Part shown: positions 52,923 through 64,000 of the stretch, in pieces
Position numbering within the stretch: position 1 is the first letter of the stretch
Layout of the letters: each line of letters starts with the position of its first letter
NCBI RefSeq assembly: GCF_036246005.1
Contig: NZ_CP109171.1
Span: forward strand, 7,676,001 to 7,740,000
Direction: 5' to 3'
Source: Streptomyces sp. NBC_01723
GTDB lineage: Bacteria; Actinomycetota; Actinomycetes; Streptomycetales; Streptomycetaceae
Length of the DNA: 64,000 nt
The notes under the pieces: model-generated
What the model saw: only the letters and a program-made list of their open reading frames with translations
Told to the model about the DNA's origin: nothing
Database searches by the model: none
Translations under genes and position numbers: made by a program

Positions 52923-53873
52923 TCAGTCCCAAGTGACCCGCGCGAGGACCGGAAGGTGATCGCTGCCGGTGGCGGACAGGGTGCGGATCCGGCCGACCGT
53001 CGCGGAGCGGGCCATCACCTGGTCGATCCGGGCCATCGGGAAGGCGGCGGGGAAGCTGAGGGCGACGCCCCGCTCGGGCACGTTCAGCTCGCTGGTCAGC
53101 GGATCGAGTGCCCGGTCGTCGACGGTGCCGTTGAGGTCGCCCAGCAGGACCACCCTGCGCGACTGCTCGGCCGCGACGGCGTCGCCGAGCAGCCCGGCGC
53201 TCTCGTCCCGCCAGGACGACGCGAGGCCGGTGAGCCCGACCCGGACCGACGGCAGATGGGCGATGTACACGGCGACCTCGCCGCGCGGTGTGTGCGCAAC
53301 GGCCCGCAGCCCGCGCTCCCACTCCTCCGTGATGCCCCGCGGTCTGATGTCCAGCGGTCGGGCCCCGCTGAGCGGATGCTTCGACCAGAGTCCGACCGTG
53401 CCCCGGACCGTCCGGTACGGGTAGTCCCGGGCGAGGGTCTTCTCGTAGACCGCCCGGGCCGGCGCCACCAGCTCCTGGAGCGCTATCAGGTCGGGCTCCG
53501 CACCGGCCAGTGCGCGGGCCGTTCCCGCCGGGTCGGTGTTCTCGTCGCTGACGTTGTGCTGCACCACCACGAGGTCGTCGGCGCCGGACTCCGGCGCGGG
53601 CAGCAGCAGCGGGCCGAACCGGTACGTCCAGGCGGCCACCGGCAGCAGCAGGGCGACCAGCGCGAGAGCCGAACGGCGCAGCAGGGCCGGCGGGAGCAGC
53701 ACCACGACCAGCACGCCGAGCCACGGCAGGAAGGACTCCAGGAGGCTGCCCAGCCCGCCGGGCCGGTGGGGAACCAGGCCGTGGAACACCAGCAGCAGGG
53801 CGGTGAACACCGCCACCCCGGCCCCTGCCCGCCCGCGCCGCCAGCTCCACCCACGCTTCGCCCGCCCGGTCAT
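52923..53873 (-). CDS. VanJ-like membrane endonuclease/exonuclease/phosphatase-family protein
   Basis: Protein of 316 residues. Three N-terminal hydrophobic helices (about 18-95) anchor an external EEP-fold phosphatase domain with VVQHNVSDEN, LIALQEL, LLGDLNG and GSDHLPVLA metal/catalytic motifs. Size, topology and many segments (YEKTLARDYPYRTVRGTVGLWS, AVYIAHLPSVRVGL) strongly recall VanJ of S. coelicolor, a teicoplanin-resistance protein proposed to act on undecaprenyl pyrophosphate. ATG 53873 has GAGGAG upstream. It is not near van genes here, so it may serve lipid-carrier recycling or cell-wall stress. It is the first gene left of the amylase promoter region. Confidence 0.8.
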   Translation of the reverse strand: MTGRAKRGWSWRRGRAGAGVAVFTALLLVFHGLVPHRPGGLGSLLESFLPWLGVLVVVLLPPALLRRSALALVALLLPVAAWTYRFGPLLLPAPESGADDLVVVQHNVSDENTDPAGTARALAGAEPDLIALQELVAPARAVYEKTLARDYPYRTVRGTVGLWSKHPLSGARPLDIRPRGITEEWERGLRAVAHTPRGEVAVYIAHLPSVRVGLTGLASSWRDESAGLLGDAVAAEQSRRVVLLGDLNGTVDDRALDPLTSELNVPERGVALSFPAAFPMARIDQVMARSATVGRIRTLSATGSDHLPVLARVTWD

Positions 53874-54150: not shown

Positions 54151-54819
54151 ATGTACGGGTGCACCGACAGAGCGCGCAGAACCACCGCCGCGGCACTCGC
54201 ACTCGCCGCCGGAACTTCGGCGGCCATGGTCGCCCTCCGCAACACCGCCCGCGGCCAGGCCGTGACCGACTTGTGGGACGACGGCGGCGACCGGATCGCG
54301 TTCGGGCGCGGCTCCAAGGCGTACGTCGCCCTCAACCACGAGGGCGCCCCGCTCACCCGCACGTTCCAGACCTCGCTGCCGGCCGGTAACTACTGCGACG
54401 TCCAGACCGGCAAGGGCGTCACGGTCGACACCGCCGGCCGCTTCACCGCCACCCTCGCCGCCGGCACGGCCCCCGCGCTGCACGTCGACGCCCACACCTG
54501 CGACGGCGGACCCGGCCCCGACCCGGTGACCTCCGGCGCCTCCTTCGCCGTGAACGCCACCACCAGGTGGGGCCAGAACATCTACGTGACCGGCAACCGT
54601 CCGGAACTCGGCAACTGGAATCCGGGCAACGCCCTCGAGCTCGACTCCGCCGCCCGTCCGGTGTGGAAGCGGGACGTGGAACTCCCCGAGGGCACGTCGT
54701 TCGAGTACAAGTACGTCCGCAAGGACGAGGCGGGCAACGTGACCTGGGAGGGCGGCGCCAACCGCACCGCGACGGTCACCTCCACGAGGACCAGCCTCGA
54801 CGACACCTGGCGCACCTGA
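54151..54819 (+). CDS. Internally deleted alpha-amylase: signal peptide + C domain + CBM20
   Basis: Secreted protein of 222 residues. ATG 54151 after GGGAG starts an amylase-type signal ([18 protein letters not shown]). It runs within a few residues into [20 protein letters not shown], the linker that in full amylases follows the catalytic barrel. Then come the beta-sandwich C domain ([29 protein letters not shown]) and a family-20 starch-binding module from about 125 ([29 protein letters not shown]). The (beta/alpha)8 barrel of about 350-400 residues is missing without breaking the frame. It should bind starch but cannot hydrolyse it. The control region is kept, so it may still be expressed; a decaying gene is the simpler reading. 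Confidence 0.8.
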
Positions 54820-54837
54820 CCCCCGCCACTCCCGGAG

Positions 54838-54885
54838 CATGGGAGAGGGCCCCACGGACGCGCATCCGTGGGGCCCTCTCCCATG
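54838..54885. terminator. Very strong bidirectional terminator
   Basis: Perfect 21-base arms (54838-54858 and 54865-54885) with a six-base loop, between the amylase remnant and the convergent cold-shock gene; it reaches to within three bases of the latter's stop. Confidence 0.85.
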
Positions 54886-54888
54886 CGC

Positions 54889-55338
54889 TCAGCCTTCGAC
54901 CCAGCCGTGCTTCCTGCCGTACTCGACCAGCCGCTGCCGGAGCCGCAGGATCTGCTCCCCGGACAGCGACGGAGCCGCGCTCAGCATCAGTTCCGTCATC
55001 TCGTGGGTGAACTCCGCGGCGCCCAGCACATCACACGTCGGCTCCTCCGCCTCGTGGAACGAGGGCATCGGCGAATGCGCCGGCGCGGCGGACCGCAGCG
55101 GTGCGACCTGCGCCGGTGCCACGGACGGCGGCGCTCCGTCGGCCAGCTGGACGGACGACGCCTTCAGCCCGCGGTCGCCCTCCTCCACCTCGAACTTCAC
55201 CCAGGCCCCGGAACGCACGGACGTCTCCGGGATCAGCAGATCATTGGCATGCAGGAAGACGTCCTCCCCGCCGTGTTCGGGGGCGATGAACCCGTAGCCC
55301 CGCACCCCGTCGAACCTGACAACCCTGCCTACCGCCAT
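54889..55338 (-). CDS. Cold-shock-domain protein with C-terminal extension
   Basis: Protein of 149 residues. Residues 1-65 are a cold-shock domain with RNP-type motifs (GYGFIAPEHGGEDVFLHAND), binding single-stranded RNA/DNA. The remaining ~80 residues are an extension (LRSAAPAHSPMPSF and a helical LSGEQILRLRQRLVEYGRKHGWVEG end) absent from ordinary 67-residue Csp proteins. ATG 55338 is the family start; a GTG three codons earlier is possible. It marks the boundary before the biosynthetic cluster; about 250 bases separate it from the divergent cysteate-synthase-like gene and hold only promoter-like sequence. Confidence 0.85.
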   Translation of the reverse strand: MAVGRVVRFDGVRGYGFIAPEHGGEDVFLHANDLLIPETSVRSGAWVKFEVEEGDRGLKASSVQLADGAPPSVAPAQVAPLRSAAPAHSPMPSFHEAEEPTCDVLGAAEFTHEMTELMLSAAPSLSGEQILRLRQRLVEYGRKHGWVEG

Positions 55339-55590
55339 CTCAACCACACACCTTCTCGCACCTCTGGGCCCCAACGACTCGACAGGATGGTAACTCCGGA
55401 CCGCGGCGAGTGCGGACCGGGACGTTCAAGTGGGGCCGGGCGTCAGTTGAACACGCAACCGTTGAGTGGGTGTGCCGGGCGGCGTACTCATGGATCGCAC
55501 GGCCCGGCTGCCGTACGCTGACCGGCGCACCGCGACACCCGAAACCTCCGCATTCGAGCCATGTCCAAGTGGTCGGCGAAAGGTGGGCAC

Positions 55591-56910
55591 ATGGCCGGGA
55601 ACGGGCGGCGCGGTAGGGACGGGAAGGCCGCGGCCGGGGACCGGCACTACGTACTCGTGTGCTCGCTGTGCGGCGACCGCCGGCCCGACGACGGCCTGAT
55701 CCTGGACTGCCCGCGGGACCATCCGCCCGCGCTGCTCAGAACCGAGTACGCCAACCCGCGGTTCACCCCCGACCAGGAGTACGACGGACTCTTCCGCTAC
55801 CGGGAGTGGCTGCCCGTCGTCCGCGCCCTCCGATCGACGGGCCGGGGCGCCGTGTACCGCAGCCAGGGCCTCGCCGCCGCCCTGGGACTGCCACGGCTGT
55901 GGATCGCGTTCAACGGCTACTGGCCGGAACGCGGCGCCTCGCTCGAGACCGGCACCTTCAAGGAGTTCGAGGCCCTCACGGTGCTCGGCCGGCTCCCGGG
56001 CCGGGAGCACGTCCTGACCGTCGCCTCGTCGGGCAACACCGCCGCCGCGTTCGCCTGGGTCTGCTCCCGGCAGCGCGTGCCCTGCCTGATCGTCGTCTCC
56101 GGCAAGGGCCTGGGCCGGCTGCGGTTCCCCGGCACCCTCGACCCGTGTGTGACGCTCGTGGTCATCGACGACGGCGACTATCCCGACGCCATCGCACTCG
56201 CCTCCTCGATCTCCCGCCTGCCGCCCTTCCTGGCCGAGGGCGGCGTGAAGAACGTCGGCCGCCGGGACGGCCTGGCGGCCGTACTGCTGACGGCGTATGA
56301 GGAAATGAGATGCCTGCCGTCGCACTACTTCCAGGCGGTGGGCAGCGGCACCGGCGCCATCGCGGTCCTCGAGGCCGCCCGCCGGATCGGCGTCGCCGCC
56401 GGCGGACTTCCGCTGCCCAGACTCATGCTGTGCCAGAACCTGCCGTTCACCCCCATCCACGACGCCTGGCGCATGGGGGAGACCGTGAGGGAACCCGAAC
56501 TCACCGACGGGTTCAGGGAGTCCATCGCCAAGGTGCATGCCGACGAGCTGACGAACTGGGCACCCCCCTACAGCATCCGCGCGGGCGTGCACGACGCGCT
56601 GCGCGACAGCGACGGCGACGTCCTGGTCGCCGACAACGCCTCCGTCGTGGTCGCCCGGAACATGTTCCGCGAACTCGAAGGGATCGACATCGAGCCCGCC
56701 GCGGGTGTGGCGGTCGCCTGCCTGCGCGACGCGGTGGCCCAGGGGAAGGTCGACCGGGACGCGGTCGTCCTGCTGAACATCACCGGCGGCGGGCGCCGCC
56801 GCCTCGCGACGGACCGCCCTCTGGTGGGCGCCCGCCCGCACTGGCGCCTGACGAAGGACGCACTCGCCGAGGACGGACTGGCGCAGCGGATCGCCGCGCG
56901 ACGCACATGA
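55591..56910 (+). CDS. PLP-dependent cysteate-synthase-like enzyme
   Basis: Fold-type II PLP enzyme, 439 residues. A Zn-ribbon-like N-terminus (CSLC near residue 24, later C) as in threonine-synthase relatives, the PLP-lysine region GTFKEFEALTVL (about residue 126), phosphate-binding SSGNTAAAF and QAVGSGTGAIA loops are present. The pattern agrees with cysteate synthase, which makes cysteate from phosphoserine and sulfite, but threonine synthase or a diaminopropionate-type enzyme remain possible. ATG 55591 has GAAAGGTGGG upstream; ATG 55561 is weaker. It is the first gene of the Hpg/Dpg cluster, 89 bases before the oxidase, so it probably supplies an unusual amino acid to the product. Confidence 0.7.
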   Translation: MAGNGRRGRDGKAAAGDRHYVLVCSLCGDRRPDDGLILDCPRDHPPALLRTEYANPRFTPDQEYDGLFRYREWLPVVRALRSTGRGAVYRSQGLAAALGLPRLWIAFNGYWPERGASLETGTFKEFEALTVLGRLPGREHVLTVASSGNTAAAFAWVCSRQRVPCLIVVSGKGLGRLRFPGTLDPCVTLVVIDDGDYPDAIALASSISRLPPFLAEGGVKNVGRRDGLAAVLLTAYEEMRCLPSHYFQAVGSGTGAIAVLEAARRIGVAAGGLPLPRLMLCQNLPFTPIHDAWRMGETVREPELTDGFRESIAKVHADELTNWAPPYSIRAGVHDALRDSDGDVLVADNASVVVARNMFRELEGIDIEPAAGVAVACLRDAVAQGKVDRDAVVLLNITGGGRRRLATDRPLVGARPHWRLTKDALAEDGLAQRIAARRT

Positions 56911-56999
56911 ACGGCTTGGACGGGAGGAGCGGCGACAGGCGATACTCAAGCGCTCCTCCAGGAACTCGCTGCGTGCTGCTTTGATCGGGGAAGGATCTG

Positions 57000-58052
57000 A
57001 TGCGGCTTTCGCTCGGCGACTACGCCCGACTGGCGCGCGAACGGCTGGACCCACCGGTCTGGGACTTCCTGGACGGCGGCGCCGGTGAGGAACGCACCCT
57101 ACTGGCCAACACCACCGCCTTCGACCGGGTACGGCTGCGGCCCACGGTACTGAGCGGAGTCACCGCCCCGGAACTCCAGACCAAGATCCTCGACCGCCCG
57201 TGGGCGGTCCCGCTGGCCGTCGCGCCGATGGCCTACCACACCCTGGCGCACCCGGAGGGCGAGGCCGCCACCGTCCGGGCCGCGGCGCGCCGCGGCGTCC
57301 CCGTCGTCGTCAGCATGTTCGCCGGCCGCACCTTCGAGGACCTCGCCGCCGCGGCCGGCGCTCCGCTCTGGCTCCAGACGTACTGTCTGCGCGACCGCGC
57401 CACCGTCCGACGGCTCGTGGAACGTGCGGAGCACGCCGGGTTCGAAGCGGTCGTCCTCACCGTCGACACCCCCCGTCTCGGCCGGCGGCTGCGCGACCTG
57501 CGCAACGGCTTCCGGCTGCCCCCGGGCGTCGGACCCGCCAACCTCGACGGCGACGGCTTCGACAGCCCGGCGGGCCACGCCCTGACCCAGTTCGACCCGG
57601 CGCAGGACTGGGGCTGGGTCGAGTGGCTGCGGTCGGTCACCCGGCTGCCGATCGTGCTGAAGGGGATCCTCACCGGCGCGGACGCGGCACGCGCGGTCAC
57701 CGCCGGGGTGGACGGAATCATCGTCTCGAATCACGGCGGACGCCAACTCGACGGCGTACCGGCGTCCCTGGACGCGCTGCCGGAAGTCGCGGCCGCGGTG
57801 TCGGAGGCGTGTCCCGTCCTCCTCGACGGGGGCGTGCGCCGCGGCGCCGACGTCCTGGCCGCCCGTGCCATGGGCGCGGACGCCGTCCTCCTCGGCCGTC
57901 CCGTGCTGTACGGACTCGCCGTGGACGGCGAGGAGGGCGTCGCGCGGACGCTCGACCTGCTGGTCGACGAACTCACCGACGCCATGACCCTCACCGGCAC
58001 CGCCTCCGTGGCCGCCGTGCCCCCCGAACTGGTCAGCACCTCGCCCGCGTGA
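57000..58052 (+). CDS. hmo: FMN-dependent alpha-hydroxyacid oxidase (hydroxymandelate oxidase-like)
   Basis: Flavin oxidase of 350 residues of the glycolate/mandelate family. MRLSLGDYARLARERLDPPVWDFLDGGAGEE at the start (family FMN fold), LKGILTG with the conserved lysine, and SNHGGRQLDG with catalytic histidine and arginine near residue 245 are present. In glycopeptide clusters the homologous Hmo oxidises L-4-hydroxymandelate to 4-hydroxybenzoylformate for 4-hydroxyphenylglycine. The neighbouring dpgABC genes and an HmaS-like gene start at the right edge support that role. Good ribosome site GGGGAAGGA. Confidence 0.8.
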   Translation: MRLSLGDYARLARERLDPPVWDFLDGGAGEERTLLANTTAFDRVRLRPTVLSGVTAPELQTKILDRPWAVPLAVAPMAYHTLAHPEGEAATVRAAARRGVPVVVSMFAGRTFEDLAAAAGAPLWLQTYCLRDRATVRRLVERAEHAGFEAVVLTVDTPRLGRRLRDLRNGFRLPPGVGPANLDGDGFDSPAGHALTQFDPAQDWGWVEWLRSVTRLPIVLKGILTGADAARAVTAGVDGIIVSNHGGRQLDGVPASLDALPEVAAAVSEACPVLLDGGVRRGADVLAARAMGADAVLLGRPVLYGLAVDGEEGVARTLDLLVDELTDAMTLTGTASVAAVPPELVSTSPA

Positions 58053-58065
58053 CCGGAGCAGCAAC

Positions 58066-58130
58066 CAAAGAGACCAGAGAGAACAGAGAGAACAGAGAGA
58101 AGAGCGAAGAGCGAAGAAAGAGAGAGGAGT
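58066..58130 (+). repeat. Purine-only repetitive tract
   Basis: About 60 bases of nearly pure A/G with repeated AGAGAACAG and GCGAAGA units, unusually A-rich for this genome. It ends in the ribosome site of the small peptide gene. It may be unstructured leader RNA favouring translation. Confidence 0.6.
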
Positions 58131-58135
58131 GGGTG

Positions 58136-58182
58136 ATGTCCGGCTGGACCGTCAAGCGGCTTGTCCGCAGTAAGCGTCGCAT

Positions 58183-58204
<22 letters not shown>
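58136..58204 (+). CDS. 22-residue Trp/Arg-rich leader peptide overlapping dpgA
   Basis: Small gene with GAGGAG six bases before its ATG. The peptide is strongly basic with four tryptophans (MSGWTVKRLV... ending MWGWTFR). Its TGA overlaps an in-frame ATG of dpgA (58201) in ATGA fashion. It may simply couple ribosomes onto dpgA, act as a translation-attenuation leader (tryptophan/arginine codons), or be a real membrane-active peptide. No homology is claimed. Confidence 0.5.
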
Positions 58205-61120
<2,916 letters not shown>

Positions 61121-61199
61121 CCCGTCCCGCACGGCCACGAGCCGTCCGGGACGTCTTCGTCGACGCGCGCCCACCCGCGCGCAGAACTGGAGGAACGCG

Positions 61200-62585
61200 G
61201 TGCGCAGTCACCAGCCCGAACCGGCCGAACCGGCAGGCACGGAAGCGGAAACCGGCCCCCCCGATGCGGTCGTCGCCACCGCACGCCGCCGACTGGACGA
61301 ACTGCGCACCGTGCGGACACCGGTGGAGGACTTCAGGACGGCGGTCACGGATCTGGTGGTCATCGCCTCCCCCTTCCGGGGCGGCACCACACTGCTGACG
61401 GAACTCCTCCGCGGCGCCGAGGACCTCCTGCACTTCCAGGCCGAGATGCAGCCCGTCCTGCGCCTGGCCGGGTGGACCCACCCGGAGAACGGCGCCGACT
61501 CCGAACGGCTCTCCGGCCTCACCGGAGACGTCGCCCTCATCGAGCACGAACTGGGCAGCGACGTGGGCAACCCCGTGAGCGACTGGGACGCCATCGACTG
61601 GTCGCGGTTCGCCCAGGACGTCCTGTGGCGCTGGATCGTGCAGTGGCCCACGGCACCTCTCAGCCTCGCCGAGGTCGAATCCATGCTGGCGAAGGCGCTC
61701 GCGGACCAACCGCCCGGCGGCCTCGACGACGGCAGCGGCGACCCCACCCGCGCGGTCGGCCTCACCCTGCTGAAGATGCTGACGACACGGTACGCGTACG
61801 CGAACCCGTACTACGCCGACGTCTCTGCGGCTGAGATCAACGGCATCCTCCCGGAGGCGCCCCGGCCGGCCGGACCGCACGGCGACACCGTCCTCGAATT
61901 CGCGCCCCTCGCCCTGCCCAAACCCTGGAAGAGGGCGACGCGGCAGGAGGTGGAGAGCCGGACCGTCATCACCAAGACCCCCGTCAACGTCTACAAACTG
62001 GGTGCCCTCAGGGAGTTCTTCCCCCGGGCCCGCATGAGGATCATCCACCTCACCCGCAACCCGGGCGCCGCGATCAGCAGCTACCGCGAGGCATGGCTGT
62101 CGCACTGGTTCTTCAACGCCAGGGTCGGCACCCCGTTGAACATCGCCGGATACACCGAACCGGGACGGCCGTGGAGCCGTCACTGGTGGAAGCTCGACTT
62201 CCCGCCGGGCTGGCAGGACCTCACCGAATCCCCGCTGGAGGAGGTCTGCGCCACCCAGTGGCGCTGCTCGCACACCGCCATCCTCGACTTCGCGGCGCGG
62301 AACAAGGACATCGACGTCCTCCGCCTCCAGTACGAGGACCTGATCGGCACGGCTCACGAACGCACCCGCGCCATCGACGAGTTGGCGAGCTGGCTCGGCA
62401 CGGACCGCGCACCCCTGCTGGCCCCGGCGGTGCGGGGGATGACCCCCATGAACGCCCTCACGCTGCCGCGGCGCGCGAAGTGGTACGGCAACTACGACGT
62501 CCTCAAGGACGCCCTGAACAGCCCCGACGTGCTGTCCCTCGCTGCGGACCTGGGCTACTCGACGGACCTGACCGACTGGCCGTGA
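61200..62585 (+). CDS. PAPS-dependent sulfotransferase, large form
   Basis: Sulfotransferase-family protein of 461 residues. The 5'-phosphosulfate loop is VIASPFRGGTTLLTELL (near residue 55-71) and the 3'-phosphate region is RIIHLTRNPGAAISSYREAW (near 278). It is larger than the ~270-residue StaL-type enzymes that sulfate glycopeptides. GTG 61200 has GGAGG seven bases before. It occupies the place where dpgD is usually found. It could sulfate a phenolic Hpg/Dpg residue of the final peptide. Confidence 0.75.
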   Translation: MRSHQPEPAEPAGTEAETGPPDAVVATARRRLDELRTVRTPVEDFRTAVTDLVVIASPFRGGTTLLTELLRGAEDLLHFQAEMQPVLRLAGWTHPENGADSERLSGLTGDVALIEHELGSDVGNPVSDWDAIDWSRFAQDVLWRWIVQWPTAPLSLAEVESMLAKALADQPPGGLDDGSGDPTRAVGLTLLKMLTTRYAYANPYYADVSAAEINGILPEAPRPAGPHGDTVLEFAPLALPKPWKRATRQEVESRTVITKTPVNVYKLGALREFFPRARMRIIHLTRNPGAAISSYREAWLSHWFFNARVGTPLNIAGYTEPGRPWSRHWWKLDFPPGWQDLTESPLEEVCATQWRCSHTAILDFAARNKDIDVLRLQYEDLIGTAHERTRAIDELASWLGTDRAPLLAPAVRGMTPMNALTLPRRAKWYGNYDVLKDALNSPDVLSLAADLGYSTDLTDWP

Positions 62586-62612
62586 CCCGCGCCCGGCGGC
62601 CGTGACCCCCGC

Positions 62613-63884
62613 TCACCGGCGGTGCAGCCACGCGAGGAAGTCGGGCGGTGCCAGTGCGGCCGCCCTGGCGTGATACCTCGTCAGCTCGTCGCCGGTCAGC
62701 AGGGCCGTGCCGGACCCGGACCCACCCCGCCGGAAGAAGGCCCGGTTGTCACGGGTCGTCCCCAGGGGCTGGATCCGGTCCGCGGCCGCGCGCATCCGGT
62801 CGAACGAGGCGGCCGCGACCAGATCGTCCCAGCCGGCGCCTCCGGTGGGGACCCCGAGATGCCGGCCCAGTCGGGCCATCTCACCCGAGAGGTCGGCCGA
62901 CAGATCCTCGTAGTGGAACAGGAGGATCCCGCCGTCGGTACGGCGGGACCAGGCGTCCGACAGATGCCACAGCACACCCCGCAGGGACGACGGCTGCCCC
63001 TCGCGCGGGGGATCCTCCTCCACCCACCGGGCCAGCCACTCCCGCGGTGCCACCTGCCGCTCCCGACGCGGGCCCCCGGGCCCCGGCACACCGCCGGACC
63101 GGTCGTGGTTGCCGCTCTGGTGGTACAGCGAGACAGCGGTGTCCAGCGGATGCCGGGCGACGACGACATGGGTGACGTCCGGCGCCGTCACGACGTCGCT
63201 CAGCGGCGTATGGGTCTTGATCAGCCGCCGGTGCGACTGACCGGTGAACGCGGCGAACACCTCGTCGCACGGACGCGCCATGTCGTCCAGCCAGGGCGAC
63301 AGTTGAGGCAGCGGCGCCGGGAGGTCCGGAGTCCGCAGGACCAGCAGGGCGCAGATCATCTGCATCCACGTGGTGCCGCTCTTGGCGGGGGTGCTGATGA
63401 CGATGTCACCGGACCGGAAGTCGAACCGGCGCCACCGCGCCGTCCGGAGGAACGTCCACAGCGAGAGGGCGGCGGCGCGTCCGCGGTCGGTCAGGACGAG
63501 CCGCACCCGTCGGCGGTCGGCCCGGTCCACCCGCAGTTCCAGGTACCCGTGCGTGGTCAGCGCGTCCACCGTCTCGCCGGCCTGCCGGTCGCCGATGCCC
63601 AGCACGCGCTTGAGGTCCCCGGCCGCCCCGCCCCGGAACGCCATGGCACCCAGCACGAAGGGCCCGTGCCGCGGAAGGCCGTCGAATCCCGCTGCCGAGA
63701 GATGGGCGTCGAGGTCCGCCTCCACGTCCCCCGCCTCCCGGAGCAGGGAGCGGAGCATTTCATCGCTGACGGCAACAGGAAACACATCCGCAGCGTATTG
63801 AGCTGCCGTCCCGGCGTCAATGCGTGCAAACTCGACAACGCCCGCCACCCGTCCGGAAATCGAAGCGAAAGCCGAGCATTTCAC
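62613..63884 (-). CDS. MarR-like winged helix fused to a sulfotransferase
   Basis: Protein of 423 residues, one open frame. Residues about 35-140 look like a MarR winged helix (FVLGAMAFRGGAAGDLKRVLG, VDALTTHGYLELRVDRADRRRVRLVLTDRG). From about 155 a complete PAPS sulfotransferase begins: VISTPAKSGTTWMQMICALL, then VVVARHPLDTAVSLYHQSGN and FFRRGGSGSG near the end. The domains join within TFLRTARWRRFDFRSGD. GTG 63884 is the longest start, an ATG near 63762 the alternative. It is convergent with the large sulfotransferase and divergent from the HmaS-like start. It may be a self-regulating or substrate-sensing sulfotransferase. Confidence 0.7.
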   Translation of the reverse strand: MKCSAFASISGRVAGVVEFARIDAGTAAQYAADVFPVAVSDEMLRSLLREAGDVEADLDAHLSAAGFDGLPRHGPFVLGAMAFRGGAAGDLKRVLGIGDRQAGETVDALTTHGYLELRVDRADRRRVRLVLTDRGRAAALSLWTFLRTARWRRFDFRSGDIVISTPAKSGTTWMQMICALLVLRTPDLPAPLPQLSPWLDDMARPCDEVFAAFTGQSHRRLIKTHTPLSDVVTAPDVTHVVVARHPLDTAVSLYHQSGNHDRSGGVPGPGGPRRERQVAPREWLARWVEEDPPREGQPSSLRGVLWHLSDAWSRRTDGGILLFHYEDLSADLSGEMARLGRHLGVPTGGAGWDDLVAAASFDRMRAAADRIQPLGTTRDNRAFFRRGGSGSGTALLTGDELTRYHARAAALAPPDFLAWLHRR

Positions 63885-63967
63885 TTTACGCCCGTCGGCC
63901 GTCGTTCCCAGCGGCAGTGATCCTCAGGTAGCGTGCACCGACGCCATTCGGATACCGGAGGGTTCCC

Positions 63968-64000
63968 ATGGATATTGGCGCTATCGATCATCTCGAATGC
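63968..64000 (+). CDS. Start of a probable 4-hydroxymandelate synthase (HmaS/HPPD family)
   Basis: Eleven codons before the right edge, beginning MDIGAIDHLEC, with GGAGGG six bases upstream. IDHLE matches the opening strand of the vicinal-oxygen-chelate fold of 4-hydroxyphenylpyruvate dioxygenase and HmaS. In this cluster HmaS is expected next to Hmo. Too short for certainty. Confidence 0.45.
   Translation, partial: MDIGAIDHLEC

Follow-up and report, generated by a model that had tools for sequence, protein, structure and literature searches.

Which residues does a peptide contain when the genes for its phenylglycines lie beside a cysteate synthase, and which module takes up the sulfonate? 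This question is raised by the right-hand end of a 64,000-nucleotide stretch (the window, G000:C1:7676001-7740000) of the 8.85-Mb genome of Streptomyces sp. NBC_01723, for which a preliminary description had suggested a product with a sulfonated amino acid and sulfate esters. The DNA to the right of the window, given here in extended coordinates (genome position minus 7676000), encodes a nonribosomal peptide synthetase (NRPS), and the best explanation of the whole is likely a strain-specific cluster for a 21-residue peptide in which cysteate is activated by module 15 (M15). The argument turns on the following elements, the modules being of condensation-adenylation-carrier (C-A-T) type.

55372-142524 (extended, 87 kb; right end at genome 7818524; 55372..64000 inside the window): strain-specific block, delimited by blastn against the same-species genome G277 and by GC content
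55561-56910, plus strand: cysteate synthase, a pyridoxal phosphate (PLP) enzyme; TIGR03844 395.6 bits, curated equivalog cut-off 324.9
71652-140146 (extended; genome 7747652-7816146, 68 kb): NRPS of 21 C-A-T modules with a terminal thioesterase

Cysteate synthase within a strain-specific block

The genes named in the preliminary description (cysteate-synthase-like, Hmo-like, dpgABC, two sulfotransferases and the start of an HmaS-like gene) were recovered in place by profile matches, with the cysteate-synthase gene starting 30 bases upstream of the position first given. Its product scores only 31.8 bits with the thrC model, and its best match in the Protein Data Bank is 9k3c, named cysteate synthase, with 323 bits, compared with 41 bits for the best threonine synthase. 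Because two further loci of the genome lie above the thrC cut-off, a stray threonine synthase at 55561-56910 was ruled out; the enzyme also shares its 87-kb block with the NRPS, and the earlier concern that it might be an orphan gene unrelated to the cluster thus fell away. From these family matches we infer that the product makes cysteate from O-phosphoserine and sulfite.

The same TIGR03844 family includes the archaeal cysteate synthase of the Methanosarcinales, which serves coenzyme M (PMC12068725). In a tree of 54 rows (16 archaeal, 31 actinomycete and one threonine-synthase row), the archaeal rows form one group (16 rows, support 100/100) and the actinomycete rows a separate one (31 rows, 96/87), and the NBC_01723 enzyme clusters with those of two Streptosporangiaceae metagenome-assembled genomes (MAGs; 100/99); the root is unsure, the single threonine-synthase row lying on a very long branch. 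Homologues of the enzyme adjoin NRPS genes in other actinomycetes at many of the named loci, and genes for hydroxyphenylglycine (Hpg) or dihydroxyphenylglycine (Dpg) lie at most 10 kb from it in six of 37 such loci (L037, L039, L040, L044, L051 and L071). At L035, from the Streptosporangiaceae MAG JOPF361, a cysteate synthase 65% identical to that of NBC_01723 is accompanied about 7 kb away by a halogenase with 69% identity, so far as sequence goes a possible relative of the present cluster.

On contig C409 of G277, the flanks matching 54223-55371 and 142525-145737 sit 50 bases apart by blastn, and the whole of 55372-142524 is missing at this equivalent site. The block has a GC content of 0.687, its left and right flanks 0.712 and 0.708. 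G277 has no cysteate synthase in a search at E 1e-60; its other contigs hold DpgBC-like and Hmo-like DNA of 70-74% identity. Since the biosynthetic genes, both sulfotransferases, the MbtH gene and the NRPS all lie inside the block that G277 lacks, they are treated as one unit, and the comparison supports a single unit either gained in NBC_01723 or lost in G277. Two neighbouring candidates were rejected as cluster members, namely a VanJ-like gene at 52923-53873 (278 bits, cut-off 700), which sits in the flank common to G277, and FtsX/ABC genes at extended 142811-145734, considered as an exporter, the same DNA being present in G277.

The synthetase and its pocket codes

The NRPS that the preliminary description had looked for to the right was found in full. 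Pfam searches of the genome returned 21 condensation (C) domains, 21 carrier domains, one thioesterase and 26 adenylation hits in C-A-T order, the last reducing to 21 adenylation (A) domains, since five hits are the second or third fragment of a domain already counted; the same searches found no separate epimerisation (E) domain in the NRPS. C domains 2, 3, 4, 9, 10, 12, 13, 15, 16, 19 and 21 score 132-147 bits with PF00668 and the other ten 208-330. These eleven low-scoring domains carry a QEGxxFHHL stretch, which we take to be the mark of dual condensation/epimerisation domains, and they are probably of that kind. Elsewhere in the genome, a second large NRPS cluster lies at G000:C1:3426380-3465419, with C, A and carrier domains and some C-family hits resembling E domains, while C-domain hits of equal score and opposite orientation near both chromosome ends (G000:C1:20020-21282 and 8740972-8742234) suggest terminal inverted repeats.

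A known cluster of the glycopeptide, feglymycin or ramoplanin type is a most improbable reading of the block. The Hpg/Dpg genes, the halogenase and MbtH are features that such clusters share, but the glycopeptide class has seven modules and there are 21 here, which rules out a glycopeptide cluster. Ramoplanin and enduracidin are long, Hpg-rich, halogenated nonribosomal peptides like the one predicted here, but have 17 residues instead of 21. Neither these two nor feglymycin is known to contain cysteate. Feglymycin, a 13-mer with Dpg (PMC5133696), is likewise a long Dpg peptide, although shorter by its residue count. Besides the module count, the block departs from these systems in its cysteate synthase and Asp-type codes, and no P450 was seen among its identified genes, no P450 model having been searched. 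The module count sets the predicted product apart from both heptapeptide glycopeptides and 13-mers of the feglymycin type.

As assembled, frame shifts interrupt the A domains of M3, M13 and M16, as they would in a decayed cluster whose frameshifts are real and which yields no product. Such decay is unlikely, since all three breaks fall in G-runs, in DNA about 99% identical to unbroken copies within the same cluster, as from homopolymer errors, and the block's other identified genes have open frames. Judged against those intact copies, the breaks are probably assembly errors; if they are, the NRPS would consist of one ten-module and one eleven-module synthetase, which meet where their genes overlap at 104056/104059. 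The pieces of the frameshifted A domains were read separately, with no frame mended.

The nine pocket positions of each A domain were located first from GrsA anchors and then by a profile of 18 intact A domains, with the following result.

M1, M10: DVWHVSLVD, presumably Ser-like
M2, M7, M13, M18: DGLSLGTVM, residue not assigned with confidence
M3, M8, M14: DLTKMGHVG, which we take to be Asp
M4: DPWHAGGIA, on our assumption perhaps Dpg
M5: DFWSVGMVH, presumably Thr
M6, M9, M11, M16: DAFHLGLLC, which we take to be Hpg
M12: DAWQFGLVD, presumed to be perhaps Gln, not a confident assignment
M15: DATKMGHVG
M17: DALHLGVLC, presumably Hpg-like
M19, M21: DTWTVASVD, residue not assigned with confidence
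M20: DAWHFGVVD, residue not assigned with confidence

The code of M15 differs from that of the Asp-type modules M3, M8 and M14 in having Ala in place of Leu at position 236, and its A domain is 79-80% identical to the Asp domains of M8 and M14. In the proposed mechanism, M15 would activate cysteate through an Asp pocket altered from Leu to Ala at 236, in which Lys278 and His322 would still hold the anion while the smaller residue at 236 would give the sulfonate room. For Asp and Asn A domains, DLTKVGHVGK is given in PMC12283262. The DTWTVASVD code of M19 and M21 recurs at L233 and L266 of Streptomyces sp. DvalAA-43, which has a cysteate synthase and Hpg genes.

The DATK code and cysteate synthase across genomes

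Across the genus, the DATK code is statistically tied to the enzyme. Cysteate synthase occurs in 25 of 392 genus genomes at E 1e-60, 24 of them above the TIGR03844 cut-off. The first 116 matches listed in E-value order by a genus search with M15, which has further matches, were all read, and DATK was found in 20 of the 31 domains from enzyme-bearing genomes against none of the 85 from enzyme-free ones (Fisher 6e-15, relatedness ignored); with DITK, which occurs once in each set, the counts become 21/31 and 1/85. The other ten enzyme-bearing rows are of Asp/Asn type, the three Asp domains of the NBC_01723 cluster among them. In a smaller subset of 90 of the first 111 rows, from which 21, mostly repeat hits of sampled genomes, were left out, D[A/I]TK occurs in 19 of 23 enzyme-bearing and 0 of 67 enzyme-free rows. 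The sample consists of domains similar to M15, so that enzyme-free genomes could still harbour DATK domains too dissimilar from M15 to be sampled, and enzyme-free means by the E 1e-60 search, a lower threshold having been checked for G377 only.

Counted by genome, DATK or DSTK is present in 22 of the 25 enzyme-bearing genus genomes, or 23 when the DITK of G187 is included; in 21 of these 23 the D[A/S/I]TK domain and the enzyme share a contig and are no more than about 62 kb apart, and in G121 and G364 the domain is on another draft contig. In NBC_01723, the cysteate-synthase gene and the DATK domain both fall within the cluster. A class-wide sample of 394 genomes yielded cysteate synthase only in NBC_01723 itself and G292, and the code in 0/28 domains from enzyme-free genomes, three of which repeat genus ones. 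Fourteen of the genomes behind the 37 named cysteate-synthase loci were also searched, only the best A-domain hits being read: 11 had A-domain matches and four had D[A/S]TK, as DATK in two Kitasatospora and the Streptosporangiaceae MAG JOPF032 and as DSTK in the acidobacterial MAG AA24. We read DATK as a cysteate-selecting pocket, and the use of cysteate by the cluster through M15 is strongly supported by this association; the sulfonated amino acid of the preliminary description is thus tied, by sequence comparison, to one A domain. Val-Cya-Thr-type clusters were seen to recur in G193, G253 and others.

A tree of 107 A domains, built without some of the rows added later to complete the 116-row count, requires seven changes to the D[A/S/I]TK group, at least six of them forced by well-supported branches, including the DITK branch, which is now doubtful. 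M15 groups with the Asp domains of its own cluster (support 100/99). In G347 and G354, the DATKVGAVN domains fall together with DLTKVG(A/S)VN domains from those two genomes. The number of apparent origins may be inflated by recombination within A domains; a repeated change at one pocket residue, tied to one enzyme, is the trace expected of a substrate switch. The chances seem about even for the wider proposal that DATK (typically DATKMGHVG, with a DSTK variant) is a general actinomycete cysteate code, arisen several times from Asp/Asn pockets in cysteate-synthase clusters and used once here in a chlorinated, sulfated 21-residue Hpg/Dpg peptide of undescribed type.

Along with the frame shifts described above, several observations weigh against the cysteate peptide. 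The GrsA pocket numbering and the residue names attached to the codes are assumed; the Dpg-loading module is unsure; and DpgD, the usual fourth member of the Dpg pathway, was not noticed among the block's identified genes, no search aimed at it having been made. DITK is not an unambiguous marker, for G377 has a DITKMGHVG domain (G377:C78:19776-20831, L304) and lacks cysteate synthase (best match 41.5 bits); this domain may either be of Asp type or draw on cysteate from another source. In G093 and G289, which carry the enzyme, the surrounding 80 and 57 kb that were read contain no A domain. By best hits, three of the 14 named-locus genomes gave no A-domain match, six had no D[A/S]TK (S. cellostaticus, S. 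sp. DvalAA-43, Saccharothrix, JOPF361, a Blastocatellia and an Oscillatoriales MAG) and one, Actinophytocola, had the variant DGPKMGHVG; code and enzyme share a contig in just one of the four positives, Kitasatospora GAS204B. Lastly, the genome behind the discodermins has, according to its authors, no known cysteate biosynthetic gene, pointing to another route (PMC12858407).

These exceptions bear on the alternative in which the cysteate made by the PLP enzyme feeds another process (sulfonolipid formation or general sulfonate metabolism) and M15 is no more than a variant Asp domain. In Alistipes, a cysteate synthase of archaeal type serves to make sulfonolipids (PMC10191378), and such a role would also fit G093 and G289, where no A domain was seen close to the enzyme, and G377, where a DITK domain occurs without it. 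The alternative is nevertheless distinctly unlikely, even more so than decay of the cluster, given that 22 of the 25 enzyme-bearing genus genomes also have DATK or DSTK, that DATK is missing from all 85 listed genus and 28 class-sample domains of enzyme-free genomes, that the A-domain tree requires several changes, and that code and enzyme lie close together on one contig in most of the genomes that have both.

Tailoring genes, predicted product and known relatives

The remaining features of the block are as follows.

57000-58052, plus strand: Hmo-like flavin mononucleotide oxidase; PF01070 423.8 bits, Hmo named by context, without an Hmo-specific model
58183-59280, plus strand: DpgA, type III polyketide synthase; NF042429 637.5 bits, cut-off 425
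59277-59930, plus strand: DpgB; NF042431 276.6 bits, cut-off 140
59927-61120, plus strand: DpgC dioxygenase; NF042432 626.4 bits, cut-off 530
61200-62585, plus strand: sulfotransferase 1; PF13469 50.6 bits, cut-off 27
62613-63884, minus strand: sulfotransferase 2, with an N-terminal winged-helix-like stretch; PF00685 95.7 bits (cut-off 22), PF13463 (HTH_27) 24.1 bits (cut-off 22.2)
63968-65044 (extended end; 63968..64000 in the window), plus strand: HmaS-like gene; TIGR01263 (4-hydroxyphenylpyruvate dioxygenase) 341.3 bits, cut-off 277, HmaS named by context
65060-66580: flavin halogenase; PF04820 254.8 bits, CmlS model 287.4 bits (cut-off 900)
66668-68560, minus strand: MsbA-like ATP-binding cassette (ABC) exporter
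68761-70158: aminotransferase; PF00155, HpgT named by context
70308-71342: alpha/beta hydrolase
71417-71629: MbtH
140196-140804: methyltransferase
140944-142023, minus strand: frame with weak helix-turn-helix matches only, which we take to resemble StrR-type regulators of phenylglycine clusters

DpgA, DpgB and DpgC, joined by 4-base overlaps, are all present, with three equivalog matches above cut-off. A 629-residue plus-strand frame at extended 66755-68644 was rejected as a gene, as it matches no family and the minus-strand frame is the ABC exporter. Sulfotransferase 2 has a match at 1e-20 in only one other of 101 genus genomes searched, over residues 147-421 and hence without the winged-helix-like stretch, and its single-sequence structure prediction was unusable (mean pLDDT, the predicted local confidence score, 34).

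In the pathway proposed from this gene content, the HmaS-like and Hmo-like enzymes and the aminotransferase would supply Hpg, DpgABC and the aminotransferase would supply Dpg, and cysteate synthase would form L-cysteate from O-phosphoserine and sulfite. The chain would be assembled by the 21 C-A-T modules, with eleven C domains probably epimerising, and released by the terminal thioesterase; chlorination of an Hpg is the probable role of the halogenase, and sulfate may be introduced by the two sulfotransferases. The predicted product would have 21 residues, Hpg, Asp and a single cysteate among them, with Dpg and chlorine as probable and sulfate as a possible further feature; the sulfate esters of the preliminary description are only plausible.

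Cysteate is found in other nonribosomal peptides. Like the peptide predicted here, that of S. lincolnensis is a cysteate-containing Streptomyces product whose biosynthesis has been studied (Wang 2018, J Org Chem, as cited among papers on cysteate biosynthetic enzymes in PMC12858407), and a connection between a cysteate synthase and an NRPS may already have been made in that work. Stenothricin, also from Streptomyces, contains a cysteic acid residue and is a linear octapeptide (PMC10880069, which gives its NRPS as EFE73312.1), as opposed to the product of 21 modules. The discodermins of 'Entotheonella', nonribosomal tetradecapeptides, resemble the present case in that their cysteic acid enters at a module whose predicted substrate is Asp, but differ in the lack of a known cysteate enzyme in the genome (PMC12858407). 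Closer in gene content is Kitasatospora sp. GAS204B, with a cysteate synthase, DpgABC, an aminotransferase, two DATKMGHVG modules and one Dpg-like DAYHGGTLC module, although the 80 kb read there contains 11 A domains, with Gly- and Val-type codes, and no tblastn match to the halogenase, sulfotransferases, HmaS or Hmo of NBC_01723. Its DATKMGHVG and Dpg-like modules indicate that cysteate with Dpg recurs.

No published A-domain code for cysteate was found in the open-access literature, two likely places for one (Wang 2018, and Liu 2014 on the stenothricin cluster) lying outside it. Within that literature, nothing was found that joins cysteate synthase to nonribosomal synthesis or treats peptides in connection with cysteate synthase in Streptomyces, and cysteic acid appeared together with hydroxyphenylglycine only in an amino-acid table. 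PMC12283262 covers 2051 A domains, its Cya-3 denoting cyanoalanine and not cysteate, and the main text of PARAS (PMC13126170) has neither 'cysteic' nor 'cysteate'. A cysteate-containing nonribosomal peptide of Streptomyces being already known, what is new here is the code, together with the joint occurrence of cysteate and phenylglycines.

The Asp prediction for a cysteic-acid module in PMC12858407 shows a gap in code knowledge. Given a testable code one pocket change away from Asp and an enzyme to serve as marker, sulfonated peptides could be discovered by genome mining. Six other named actinomycete loci also pair a cysteate synthase with Hpg or Dpg genes, a sign of a family of compounds that would merit isolation.

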